A DNA stretch of 64,000 nt from Methanohalophilus mahii DSM 5219 (GTDB lineage: Archaea; Halobacteriota; Methanosarcinia; Methanosarcinales; Methanosarcinaceae): the NCBI RefSeq assembly GCF_000025865.1, contig NC_014002.1, positions 868,001 through 932,000 of the forward strand, given 5' to 3'. Below, in pieces: positions 45,675 to 49,372 of the stretch (position 1 is the stretch's first letter; the number at the start of each line of letters is the position of its first letter). A model generated the notes under the pieces. The model saw only the letters and a program-made list of their open reading frames with translations, was not told the origin of the DNA and made no database searches. The translations under genes were made by a program, and so were the position numbers.

Positions 45675-46137
45675 TTATTTTGATCCCTGTGAAAATCCGC
45701 TTGTTTCTTCAACGAATTGTTCAACTCTCTTTTTGATGGAATCTCTCAAATTCCTCATTTGTTCCAGCTTTTCTTCATGTGTGCCTGTGAAGTTTTCAGG
45801 TTCCGGGAATGGCCAGTATAATTTTGCAAAAGGTTTTGGATATATCGGACATCTCTCCTCGTGCTCTCTGTCACAAACAGTAATTACGAAATGGAAAAAT
45901 TTACCCGCCCGGAAGAGATCCCATGCATCCTGAGTATTTTTTCTTTGTGAGATCGAATCCATCCTCTTTCATTACTTTAAGGACGAGTGGATTAATCTGT
46001 CTGGGCTCAAAACTCGCACTTTCAGCTTCGAACTTCCCTTCTCCGAGTCTTTTCAGGTATTCTTCTGCGATCTGGCTTCTTGCACTGTTGTGCATACAAA
46101 TGAAAAGCACTTTGATATTTTCGTTGCTTTCTTGCAT
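45675..46137 (-). pseudogene. arsC: Arsenate reductase (ArsC, thioredoxin type) with a one-base frameshift
   Basis: The N-terminal half (MQESNENIKVLFICMHNSAR...DGFDLTKKK) and C-terminal half (TQDAWDLFRAGKFFHFVITV...) lie in different frames that cross at a run of six T (45937-45942; A-run on the coding strand). Deleting one A joins KK to NTQDAWDLF and yields a normal low-molecular-weight phosphatase-fold ArsC of about 150 residues with the CX5R loop CMHNSAR and the later Cys pair around TVCDREHEERCP. Everything else is intact, so this is a young mutation, a phase-variable homopolymer, or a sequencing error. Confidence 0.85.
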
Positions 46138-46174
46138 GTAAATGTAGAGGAGCTGATGTGGCAACAAGTGTTAC

Positions 46175-46278: not shown

Positions 46279-46860
46279 TTACTTTAAGTTTCCTGCAAGT
46301 TCCTCGCCCATCTGGAAAGCCTTTTTAAGCGCTGCTTCATCCTTTTTGATAATTCCCCTGTCAAATTGGTTGAGCACAGGTATCGCCTTATCCACTGTGT
46401 ATCCCAGGGCTTCCAGGGGATAACTCATGGCTTCCAGGCTGAACCCGATATCTTCAATGATGGGTTGCTCCCCAATGCTGAAAACGCAGGCGCGTCTTCC
46501 CTGTCCTGCCAGCCGGCTGGAATACTCGCGTGGCCGGTCATCGGTGAAATTGTAGTATGGATACAGGCGGTCTATGAAGGTTTTCATAAGGGAGGTAACA
46601 TTGTAATTGTAGGTAGGGGAGCCAAGCACAATACCCTTTGCTTCTTCGATCTTTGGGTACAGTAAATTCATCCCGTCATGAAAGCGGGTACAGGTCTTAT
46701 CCTGGCGACATCTTTCACAGCCCACGCAGGACTCGATACTGTAATCGCGCAGATGTACTATCTCGACTGTAGCACCGTTTCTTTTTGCGCCTTCCATTAC
46801 CTCATCAAGCAATACGTCGGTATTACCTGCCTTTCTGGGACTTGCACAGATTCCCAGAAT
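46279..46860 (-). CDS. NADPH-dependent FMN reductase / iron-sulfur flavoprotein-like
   Basis: About 194 residues of flavodoxin fold. The FMN phosphate loop ILGICASPRKAGNTDV, the Cys cluster ESCVGCERCRQDKTC (Isf-like, probable 4Fe-4S site) and SPTYNYNVTSLMKTFIDR are present. The only standard start in frame is TTG 46812, but that would drop the FMN loop. The loop is encoded upstream, where the only candidates are ATT 46860 or CTG 46857, and a TAG closes the frame at 46878. I therefore place a non-standard start at ATT 46860, or the gene start is damaged. Last gene of the tusA-dsrE-iscS-iscU unit. Confidence 0.65.
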   Translation of the reverse strand: MLGICASPRKAGNTDVLLDEVMEGAKRNGATVEIVHLRDYSIESCVGCERCRQDKTCTRFHDGMNLLYPKIEEAKGIVLGSPTYNYNVTSLMKTFIDRLYPYYNFTDDRPREYSSRLAGQGRRACVFSIGEQPIIEDIGFSLEAMSYPLEALGYTVDKAIPVLNQFDRGIIKKDEAALKKAFQMGEELAGNLK

Positions 46861-46895
46861 ATCTATTGTAATACTATATTCCTCCTCTTCTGTAA

Positions 46896-47531
46896 TTATT
46901 CTGTGAAAACAACCTTCACTTCTTCGACATCCCAGAGTGACTCTATTTTTTCCAGAATATCCTCTTTTATAGCCGATGCGAACTGGTGGTCTGAAGGAAG
47001 GTCTATAAGTATTCTCACACTACCTTCATTGATCTCTATCTTTGTCACAAGTTCCGTCCTGATAATATCCAGTCCTGCCATGGGATTCATGACATGTTTC
47101 AGACGCCTTCTGACAACTTCTTCAGTAGTAGTTTCTTTCTCGCTCACAAGGCCATGCTTTTCTTCATAATCCCGGATTGCCGCCCTCAAGCCTTCCACAG
47201 CCAGTACTGAACAGTGTGCTTTTACGGTGGGCAGTCCTCCGAGTTCTTCGGTTGCCTGCTTCCATGAGATATTTTTAGCTTCTTCCAGGGTCTTTCCCTT
47301 GGCCATTTCCGTAATTATGGAAGCTGTAGCGATATTGGATGCACATCCATAGGATTCAAATTTTATATCCTCTATCACCAGGGTTTCGGGGTTTACATTC
47401 AGGTATACTGCCACCATGTCACCACATGCCGGACTTCCTTCCAGCCCCTTGCCATCCGGATTTTCTATTTTACCCACATTCCGGGGATTTTTAAAGTGAT
47501 CAAGAACTTTTTCACTGTAAGGGAATTTCAC
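46896..47531 (-). CDS. IscU/NifU-like scaffold fused to a MIP18 (DUF59) domain
   Basis: About 211 residues from GTG 47531 (AGGTG six bases before; the earlier in-frame GTG 47540 is part of that ribosome site). Residues 1-125 are IscU: KVLDHFKNPRNVG, Cys36-Gly-Asp38, Cys63 in YGCASN and Cys107 in KAHCSV, so all three cluster ligands and the Asp are kept. Residues about 140-211 are a MIP18-like domain (HVMNPMAGLDIIRTELV) which lacks the usual Cys before the last helix. Joins Fe-S assembly with a delivery-type domain. It starts beside the iscS stop and is clearly coupled to it. Confidence 0.88.
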   Translation of the reverse strand: MKFPYSEKVLDHFKNPRNVGKIENPDGKGLEGSPACGDMVAVYLNVNPETLVIEDIKFESYGCASNIATASIITEMAKGKTLEEAKNISWKQATEELGGLPTVKAHCSVLAVEGLRAAIRDYEEKHGLVSEKETTTEEVVRRRLKHVMNPMAGLDIIRTELVTKIEINEGSVRILIDLPSDHQFASAIKEDILEKIESLWDVEEVKVVFTE

Positions 47532-47541
47532 ATTAAACACC

Positions 47542-48708
47542 TCACTTTTTCTCGTACAATGGACTAATTTCTCTTAATTGAGCAACTATTTCCTTAATCG
47601 CATCCACAATGGCATCGGTTTCCTCAAGGGTATTGTAACGACTGAAGGTAAAGCGCAATGATCCGTGGGCCCTTTCATGATCTCCACCTATGCCCAGTAT
47701 AACGTGACTTGCTTCAAGGGAGCGGCTAAAACACGCAGAACCCGTGCTGACCGCAAATCCACGCATATCCAGATGCAGGGTAAGTGATTCACCTTCTACA
47801 TAATGGAACGTTATGTTGGCATTATGTGGACTCCTGTGTTCCTTACTTCCGTTTAATATTACATTTGTAATTTCACTGGATATTCTCTCTATAAGATGGT
47901 CTCTCAGTGCCTTAATCTGCCTGTTTTCCTCCTCTGTCACAAGTTCGACTGCTTTTGCAAATCCGACAGCTCCGGGTATGTTTTCAAGGCCAGCCCTTAG
48001 ATTAAATTCCTGGAATCCGCCGTCCATCCATTTGTTGAGAGGGGTGTCTTTGCGTATATAGAGGCCTCCAACACCACGGGGCCCATGTATGGTATGTGAT
48101 GCAATAGTTATCAGGTCCACAGGAATTTTTTGCACATCTATTGGAACGCGTGTGAAACTATGGGTGGCATCTGTATGCAGAAGTACTCCTTTCTCCCTGC
48201 ATATGCCTGAAATGCTTTCCAGATCCTGCAGCGTACCTATTTCCTGATTGGCATGCTGTATCGAGACGAGAACAGTTTCGTCTGTGATCGTCTCTGCAAG
48301 TTGATCTGTATTAAGCCGACCCCTGTCGTCCACTTCAATGAAATCCACCTCAAAACCCTGTTTTTCCAGGGCTTTTGCGGTGTTCAGGACAGGGAAATCC
48401 TCGATTTTTGAGACAATAAGGTGGTTCCCTTTCTTTTTGAGTGCAGATGTTACTCCCTTTATTGCCATATTGCTTGATTCGGTGCTTCCGGATGTGAATA
48501 CGATTTCTCCCGGTGAAGCATTTAAGGAATCTGCAATGGTGGATCTTGCTTTTTCAAGAGCCTCCTTTGCATCAATCCCCATCGAATAGGCAAATTCTGA
48601 TGTTGCAACCGCATACGTATCAAAGTAATACGGCTTCATTGCATCTAATACTCTTTCATCCAGCCGTGTGCTTGCGGAATTATCAAAATAAGCGGTTTTG
48701 TCTTCCAT
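47542..48708 (-). CDS. Cysteine desulfurase-like protein lacking the PLP lysine
   Basis: 388 residues, NifS/IscS fold. Family parts kept: YFDNSASTRLD, FTSGSTESSNMA, QHANQEIGTL, LHTDATHSF and the mobile loop STGSACFSRS with the persulfide Cys326. But the lysine that binds PLP is Thr206 in ASHTIHGPRGVGG (codon ACC, where SHK[IF]xGPKG is expected), and the PLP-stacking histidine position is Asp104 in KIEDFPVL. PLP catalysis is therefore unlikely. An IscS from Archaeoglobus fulgidus is reported to lack the same lysine and to help IscU with a Cys ligand. A similar scaffold or sulfur-acceptor role is inferred here. GAGGAAT precedes ATG 48708. Confidence 0.9.
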   Translation of the reverse strand: MEDKTAYFDNSASTRLDERVLDAMKPYYFDTYAVATSEFAYSMGIDAKEALEKARSTIADSLNASPGEIVFTSGSTESSNMAIKGVTSALKKKGNHLIVSKIEDFPVLNTAKALEKQGFEVDFIEVDDRGRLNTDQLAETITDETVLVSIQHANQEIGTLQDLESISGICREKGVLLHTDATHSFTRVPIDVQKIPVDLITIASHTIHGPRGVGGLYIRKDTPLNKWMDGGFQEFNLRAGLENIPGAVGFAKAVELVTEEENRQIKALRDHLIERISSEITNVILNGSKEHRSPHNANITFHYVEGESLTLHLDMRGFAVSTGSACFSRSLEASHVILGIGGDHERAHGSLRFTFSRYNTLEETDAIVDAIKEIVAQLREISPLYEKK

Positions 48709-48716
48709 ACAATTCC

Positions 48717-49136
48717 TCAGATAAACAATGTAATCTCTGCATCCTTTGCTTCATGAACATAGGTGCCAACTGCACCATATTCATCAATCCATTCGGTACG
48801 CAGCTGTTCTTGCTTGATCCCCATAATTTCCATGGTCATTTCACAGGCAATGATTTTACCCCCCAGTTCCTTGAAATCGGTCATCATTTTTTCAAGAGGA
48901 GCTACATTGGCCTTTTTCATCCTGCCTTTGACCATCCATTTGCCAAGCCCCAGGAAATTCATTTTGGATAGTGGCCCCTTTTCAAGTCCTCCTTTTTTCA
49001 ACCTTTCAAGACCCCAGAAAGTAAAATAAAGAGAAGCTTCCATTCCCATTGAAAGTGAACCATTTGCAATAATGAGTGCACTGTATAGTTTGTCCATGTC
49101 CCCGCTATGGACTATTATGACTGTTTTGTTGCTCAC
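48717..49136 (-). CDS. DsrE-family sulfur-transfer protein
   Basis: About 139 residues from GTG 49136 (AAGGAT upstream; a TTG three codons earlier opens the frame). DsrE/F-like fold: KTVIIVHSGDMDKLYSALI, MEASLYFTFWGLERL, and one conserved Cys in KIIACEMTMEIMGI, the place where DsrE2 proteins carry persulfide. Fourteen bases after tusA and eight before iscS, so it belongs to the same unit. Partner of TusA in sulfur relay by family analogy. Confidence 0.87.
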   Translation of the reverse strand: MSNKTVIIVHSGDMDKLYSALIIANGSLSMGMEASLYFTFWGLERLKKGGLEKGPLSKMNFLGLGKWMVKGRMKKANVAPLEKMMTDFKELGGKIIACEMTMEIMGIKQEQLRTEWIDEYGAVGTYVHEAKDAEITLFI

Positions 49137-49150
49137 AGAAACCAATCCTT

Positions 49151-49372
49151 TTAACGCTTAATTCTGATTTTCCACTCACCAGATTCTTCATCGATACCGA
49201 TAATTTCAAGCCCCATGGATTCACAGGCCATTGGTATCTCCTTCTTTGAAGCTGGATGTGTGCCGGTGACTATGACCTCATCTCCGGGTGCAGCTTTTCT
49301 CAGTGCTTTCCTGCATTCGACCAGTGGGACCGGGCAGGTCTCCCCTCTGGTATCAACTTCTATTGTTGTCAT
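49151..49372 (-). CDS. TusA/SirA-like sulfur carrier
   Basis: 73 residues; DTRGETCPVPLVECRKAL with the persulfide Cys13 in the CPxP motif, then KEIPMACESMGLEI. TusA proteins accept sulfur and pass it to tRNA, molybdenum-cofactor or DsrE proteins. GGGGGA lies before the ATG. First gene of the sulfur unit. Confidence 0.92.
   Translation of the reverse strand: MTTIEVDTRGETCPVPLVECRKALRKAAPGDEVIVTGTHPASKKEIPMACESMGLEIIGIDEESGEWKIRIKR

Follow-up and report, generated by a model that had tools for sequence, protein, structure and literature searches.

A conserved IscS-like protein without the pyridoxal-phosphate lysine, encoded in tusA-dsrE-iscS-iscU operons of Methanosarcinaceae

The window analysed here is a 64,000-nucleotide stretch (868001–932000) of the 2,012,424-base single-contig genome of Methanohalophilus mahii DSM 5219. 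Its minus strand carries a compact unit of four genes in the order tusA-dsrE-iscS-iscU, separated by gaps of 1–8 bp (Table 1). The TusA-like protein consists of a TusA domain with a CPxP motif. The DsrE-like protein has the domain and the conserved cysteine of the DsrE2 family, and scores below the NCBIfam SulfCarrDsrE2 cut-off (59 vs 210 bits). The third product, IscS1, is an IscS-like protein, and the fourth, IscU1, has all three scaffold cysteines (in CGD, GCA and HCS). The initial annotation of this DNA placed the unit correctly in its coordinates, strand and residues, including the three IscU cysteines. It missed, however, the DUF59 domain fused to the C-terminus of IscU1.

Table 1. Features of the tusA-dsrE-iscS-iscU locus (positions in the window)
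Feature	Position	Strand	Evidence
tusA-like sulfur carrier (TusA), 73 aa	49151..49372	-	Pfam TusA PF01206, E=1.4e-22; C13 in CPVP
dsrE-like (DsrE2) sulfur carrier	48717..49145	-	Pfam DrsE_2 PF13686, E=5.7e-34; Cys in ACEMTMEIMG
IscS1, Lys-less IscS-like protein, 388 aa	47542..48708	-	Aminotran_5, E=6.3e-74; T206/D104/Q155/H183/L241, C326
IscU1, IscU scaffold with C-terminal FeS_assembly_P (DUF59/MIP18-like) domain, 214 aa	46896..47540	-	NifU_N, E=2e-43; FeS_assembly_P, E=4.3e-13
FMN_red-type flavoprotein with Cys cluster CVGCERCRQDKTC	46279..~46878	-	PF03358, E=1.1e-25; neighbour, not conserved part

The cofactor site of IscS1 is altered at several positions. Threonine (Thr206, in ASHTIHGPRG) stands where the lysine that forms a Schiff base with pyridoxal 5'-phosphate (PLP) is expected, and aspartate (Asp104, in IEDFPVL) replaces the histidine that stacks on PLP; the sulfur cysteine is present (Cys326, in STGSACFS). 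All three residues had been noted in the initial annotation, and each is found in 80 of 80 Thr-type orthologues, a set of about 80 sequences from seven genera of Methanosarcinaceae. The 38 Lys-bearing relatives with which these were compared keep Lys206 and Cys326 and all have His104. Both PLP residues first reported as lost are indeed gone, but the count was too low. Asn155 (37/38 relatives) and Gln183 (38/38) have become Gln155 and His183 in all 80 Thr-type proteins, and Thr243, which binds phosphate from the other subunit (Thr243*, position 241 of the query, present in 38/38 relatives) is Val, Leu or Ile in all orthologues except one. The assignment of His104, Asn155, Gln183 and Thr243* as PLP contacts assumes correspondence to E. 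coli IscS. Phe105 is likewise invariant in the Thr-type, and the 38 relatives have Pro or His at that site. Asp180 is conserved in all sequences of all types (80/80 in the Thr-type) and Thr76 in nearly all of them, and the Thr-type proteins retain the Cys loop and a C-terminal LRxxSPL tail.

Measured against group I cysteine desulfurases, IscS1 has Asp180 and the sulfur cysteine in an SxGSAC loop and lacks both the lysine of the S-x-H-K motif and the PLP contacts at positions 104, 155, 183 and 243*. It falls short of the NCBIfam equivalog cut-offs for NifS (430 vs 531 bits) and IscS (380 vs 643). Its fold is settled, because its best match in the Protein Data Bank (PDB), Archaeoglobus fulgidus IscS, is a close one to a solved structure. 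The codon change is genuine, since all four threonine codons occur at position 206 among its relatives, and the ratio of nonsynonymous to synonymous substitution rates (dN/dS, pairwise within the genus) is about 0.06. The gene is evolving under purifying selection, with its altered residues fixed. A sequencing error or a decaying pseudogene, the trivial explanation for a missing lysine, is refuted by the 80 orthologues with their differing codons and by this dN/dS, and its probability is negligible. With five PLP-site positions altered and fixed, and the cysteine and fold kept, the predicted loss of canonical PLP-dependent desulfuration is strongly supported. Since the Schiff-base lysine and most of the surrounding contacts are missing, IscS1 should be incapable of desulfurating cysteine by the usual route.

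IscS1 could instead still be a PLP or pyridoxamine 5'-phosphate (PMP) enzyme that acts on cysteine or another substrate by a mechanism not involving lysine, which we regard as improbable. ColD-type sugar dehydratases function with a histidine in place of the lysine, recombinant A. fulgidus IscS reportedly carries PMP, and the persistence of Asp180 and Thr76 would suit such an enzyme. However, the stacking histidine, Gln183, Asn155 and the phosphate-binding Thr243* are all replaced in the Thr-type, and A. fulgidus IscS is reported, in the account given in PMC7585200, to have no desulfurase activity.

The organisation of the M. mahii operon is widely maintained in the family. TusA and DsrE genes precede iscS1 in every genus examined except one (g7), single loci aside. 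CPxP is present in 69 of 69 TusA orthologues that adjoin a Thr-type IscS, C-x-M-x-x-E-x-x-G in 65 of 66 DsrE orthologues of Thr-type loci, and the motif of the IscU-DUF59 fusion in 80 of 81 orthologues. In genus g7, the tusA-dsrE pair is intact and lies more than 100 kb from iscSU or on another contig in ten genomes that are at least 97% complete; 10 of the 11 genomes keep the two genes together, and the remaining one is 76% complete.

The flavoprotein, which the initial annotation counted as a member of the unit, does not belong to its conserved part: it adjoins the operon in four closely related strains of the genus and not in two others or in other genera. No ATG start was found for its open reading frame (ORF). 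The upstream genes for CobW and MtaA similarly adjoin the unit in close strains only. Beyond the flavoprotein, an arsenate reductase/low-molecular-weight phosphatase-like gene (45675–46167, minus strand) is apparently divided between two overlapping ORFs in different reading frames, as a frameshift would cause. In two other genera (g10 and g11), iscU is followed by a gene for a DUF2284-like predicted metal-binding protein (L046:7308-7898, L058:7319-7873).

A second Lys-less type, in which Asp206 lies in the motif S-N-D-x-Y-GPKG, was found by pattern search in 10 of 393 genomes of the phylum, one of which, taken to be A. fulgidus, has two copies. These loci read DsrE-IscS-IscU, most with TusA in front. 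A pattern scan of 84,980 species gave at least 119 Asp-type loci, and all those listed are IscS homologues. The archaeal hosts among the matches listed are Archaeoglobus, ANME-2, Methanoperedens, Bathyarchaeota, Thermoplasmata, Hadesarchaea and Asgard groups; the bacterial ones are metagenome-assembled genomes (MAGs) of Nitrospinota, WOR-3/Stahlbacteria, Eisenbacteria and others, some of which may reflect binning errors. The pattern demanded Asn205 and Asp206, which makes these two sites circular, but not the remaining ones: among the matches listed, Gln183 is replaced by Ala in 102 of 112 proteins, His104 is kept in 111 of 112 and Cys326 in 112 of 112.

The two types also differ in their partners. 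The DsrE proteins match PF13686 best in the Thr-type and PF02635 best in the Asp-type, and the DUF59 fusion of the Thr-type IscU has as its counterpart, in some Asp-type loci, a fusion to a pyridine-nucleotide-disulphide oxidoreductase. Long IscU proteins with a C-terminal extension are encoded by 17 ORFs in Asp-type operons of ANME-2, Methanoperedens, Sifarchaea and others (loci include L131:3667-4995, L168:4122-5453, L164-L166, L200, L213, L232, L242, L250 and L255). In the two that were tested, the extension is a pyridine-nucleotide-disulphide oxidoreductase domain of the flavin adenine dinucleotide (FAD) kind, an unusual reductase built into the scaffold. Of the two A. fulgidus-type loci, one has an additional DsrE2-like gene downstream of iscU (L161:4046-4441), which belongs to the Pfam family of the Thr-type operon.

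The association of TusA and DsrE with Lys-less IscS proteins is clearly positive. At loci with at least 1.2 kb of upstream sequence, TusA and/or DsrE lie directly upstream in 67 of 81 Thr-type loci, 83 of 96 Asp-type loci (among the matches listed) and 0 of 35 Lys-type loci, counts that share ancestry and are not independent events, and of which the Lys-type set includes as many as two homologues of class II. The sensitivity of the TusA profile is shown by its recovery of the two other, remote TusA proteins that M. mahii encodes. Eighteen of the Asp-type genomes among the matches listed are represented in the sample by a Lys-type copy as well; the pair stands beside the Asp-type gene only in 13 of them and beside the Lys-type gene in none. 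Where both copies have full upstream room, the pair accompanies the Asp-type in 8 of 10 genomes and the Lys-type in 0. What was known as an oddity extends to a conserved class of Lys-less IscS proteins with consistent partners.

In a tree of 79 sequences from which the trait columns had been removed, the Thr-type and the Asp-type each form one clade (SH-aLRT 100 and 97–98, respectively). The data are compatible with a joint Lys-less clade (p-AU 0.73 and 0.69), which gives the slightly likelier tree, also with more PLP-site columns masked. The lysine may have been lost once or independently in the two types.

M. mahii also encodes Lys-bearing enzymes. Its canonical IscS2 (L002), 45% identical to IscS1, reads SSHKFYGPKG and EHHAVL at the corresponding sites, and its SufS-type copies have both Lys and Cys. 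One SufS-type desulfurase (L004:485-2625, approximately 1,726,300–1,728,400 of the genome) scores above the NCBIfam sufS cut-off, and its gene overlaps another at the latter's 3' end; on visual inspection, that other gene resembles an EgtD-type histidine methyltransferase. A 137-aa frame in another strain of the genus (G110:C13:120297-120638), 46% identical to IscS residues 6–121, is likely a relic of canonical IscS2, which suggests its recent loss there. A Lys-bearing protein of the IscS group is absent from 14 genomes, namely 11 of genus g7 and G107, G108 and G111. These genomes are not devoid of cysteine desulfurases altogether, as SufS-like relatives at about 30% identity remain in them. 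Since they contain no Lys-bearing IscS-group copy, the Lys-less protein is not simply a helper of canonical IscS there, although they do possess other desulfurases and a further scaffold.

These genomes bear on the idea that IscS1 is a docking or regulatory pseudo-enzyme, which sequesters IscU, TusA or canonical IscS and does not build clusters. Canonical IscS2 does occur in the M. mahii genome, and heterodimers of the two paralogues are conceivable. The 14 genomes lack such a partner, however, and sequestration would not need an invariant Cys326, which makes this explanation very improbable, slightly more so than a lysine-independent PLP/PMP enzyme.

Judging from its sequence, the operon probably encodes a dedicated module for iron–sulfur (Fe-S) assembly around a desulfurase-dead IscS, which would act as the partner of an IscU fed with sulfide or with persulfide from TusA/DsrE. 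This reading is supported by the fixed residue losses, the invariant Cys326, the low dN/dS and the linkage to tusA-dsrE, and also by the pair retained in g7 and by the genomes whose sole IscS-group copy is Lys-less. Gene order and residues suggest the following course of events, akin to the relay put forward in the initial annotation. TusA and DsrE would be loaded with reduced sulfur in the form of sulfide, sulfane sulfur or a persulfide from another source, e.g. a SufS-type enzyme, and would pass it to Cys326 and/or IscU. A nascent [2Fe-2S] cluster would then form on IscU, with Cys326 serving as a relay residue and/or a temporary fourth ligand, and the DUF59 domain may hand the cluster on. 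Two published mutants of Methanosarcina acetivorans are relevant here. A strain without sufBC grows normally on sulfide, and no sulfide-specific system was found (PMC10500019); a strain without iscSU2 has a normal Fe-S content, IscSU2 being important only on cysteine (PMC7585200). Since neither mutant is affected in this way, a sulfide-capable system should exist in M. acetivorans.

A narrower role for IscS1, that of a purely structural donor of a Cys ligand and chaperone for sulfide-fed IscU, would leave TusA and DsrE co-transcribed for tRNA thiolation, molybdopterin sulfur supply or a similar purpose, with no transfer to IscS1. Two published findings fit this role and the sulfur-fed module alike: under anaerobic conditions, E. 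coli IscU can assemble clusters with H2S when IscS is absent (PMC13015791), and the cluster on A. fulgidus IscU receives a Cys ligand, but no sulfur, from its IscS, in the account given in PMC7585200. Genus g7, moreover, retains both gene pairs at a distance from each other. Against this, the tusA-dsrE pair tracks Lys-less IscS over very distant lineages and with two DsrE subfamilies, and never a Lys-bearing IscS of the same genome. We consider the purely structural role unlikely, although less so than the enzymatic and regulatory alternatives above.

Several points weigh against the proposed sulfur-fed module. M. acetivorans IscS1 produced alone forms inclusion bodies (PMC7585200). Gene adjacency is no proof of sulfur transfer, and neither a TusA nor a DsrE of the operon kind is encoded in G140, a nearly complete genome of the Thr-type. 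SmsB/SufB is present in every genome checked and M. mahii has SufS-type and IscS enzymes with the lysine, so the module may be auxiliary.

The closest known relatives of the M. mahii pair are IscS1 and IscU1 of M. acetivorans (MA0808/MA0807). These are orthologous to it, with about 70% identity or more, the STGSACFS loop, Thr206 and Asp104, no PLP lysine, an IscU1 of about 24 kDa and clustered genes. The absence of the catalytic lysine from MA0808, as in A. fulgidus IscS, and its possible action as a cluster ligand were published in 2020, together with the clustering of its gene with four genes of unknown function (PMC7585200). The main text of that paper mentions neither TusA and DsrE nor the second domain of IscU1, and names the lysine as the sole lost PLP residue. 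A. fulgidus IscS (PDB 4eb5, 4eb7, 4hvk) resembles IscS1 in its replaced lysine, its retained loop cysteine and its adjoining IscU partner, and it too sits in a tusA-dsrE-iscS-iscU operon. Unlike IscS1, it has Asp206, Asn205 (His205 in IscS1) and the original His104, and its system has an IscU without DUF59 and a DsrE of the other subfamily. Canonical IscS/NifS proteins such as IscS2 share the fold and the Cys loop with IscS1 and differ from it in His104, Asn155, Gln183 and Lys206 and in their upstream neighbours.

Two further systems are partly comparable. In the MIS system (MisS/MisU, Garcia et al.), as described in PMC12442378, an IscS-IscU pair likewise makes up the whole machinery, including in M. 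acetivorans, but MisS is presented there as a type I cysteine desulfurase. DsrE3A and TusA of Metallosphaera cuprina are also paired cytoplasmic sulfur carriers; they are linked to Hdr-like complexes and thiosulfate transfer, in contrast to the IscS-IscU linkage in M. mahii (PMC4175335). The novelty first claimed over A. fulgidus is thus reduced by the 2020 report, by the same gene order in A. fulgidus and by the non-conserved flavoprotein. What stands is the breadth of Lys-less IscS with TusA/DsrE: no published account of it, or of a tusA-dsrE-iscS-iscU operon, was found in the open literature, although the primary description of MIS may already mention Lys-less MisS proteins or their neighbours.

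The operon is a concrete candidate for the route from sulfide to Fe-S clusters in Methanosarcina and its relatives, and lies in genetically tractable species. If the proposal is right, the inactive IscS of A. fulgidus, long a puzzle, would gain a partner set in TusA and DsrE, and the loss of the PLP lysine would mark a recurrent, conserved class and not decay. More tentatively, TusA, DsrE, a desulfurase-dead IscS and IscU might constitute a general branch of the ISC family that works without a desulfurase, which would use sulfide or sulfane sulfur to form Fe-S clusters in anaerobic archaea and several bacterial phyla, and of which the A. fulgidus and methanogen proteins would be two forms, not oddities.

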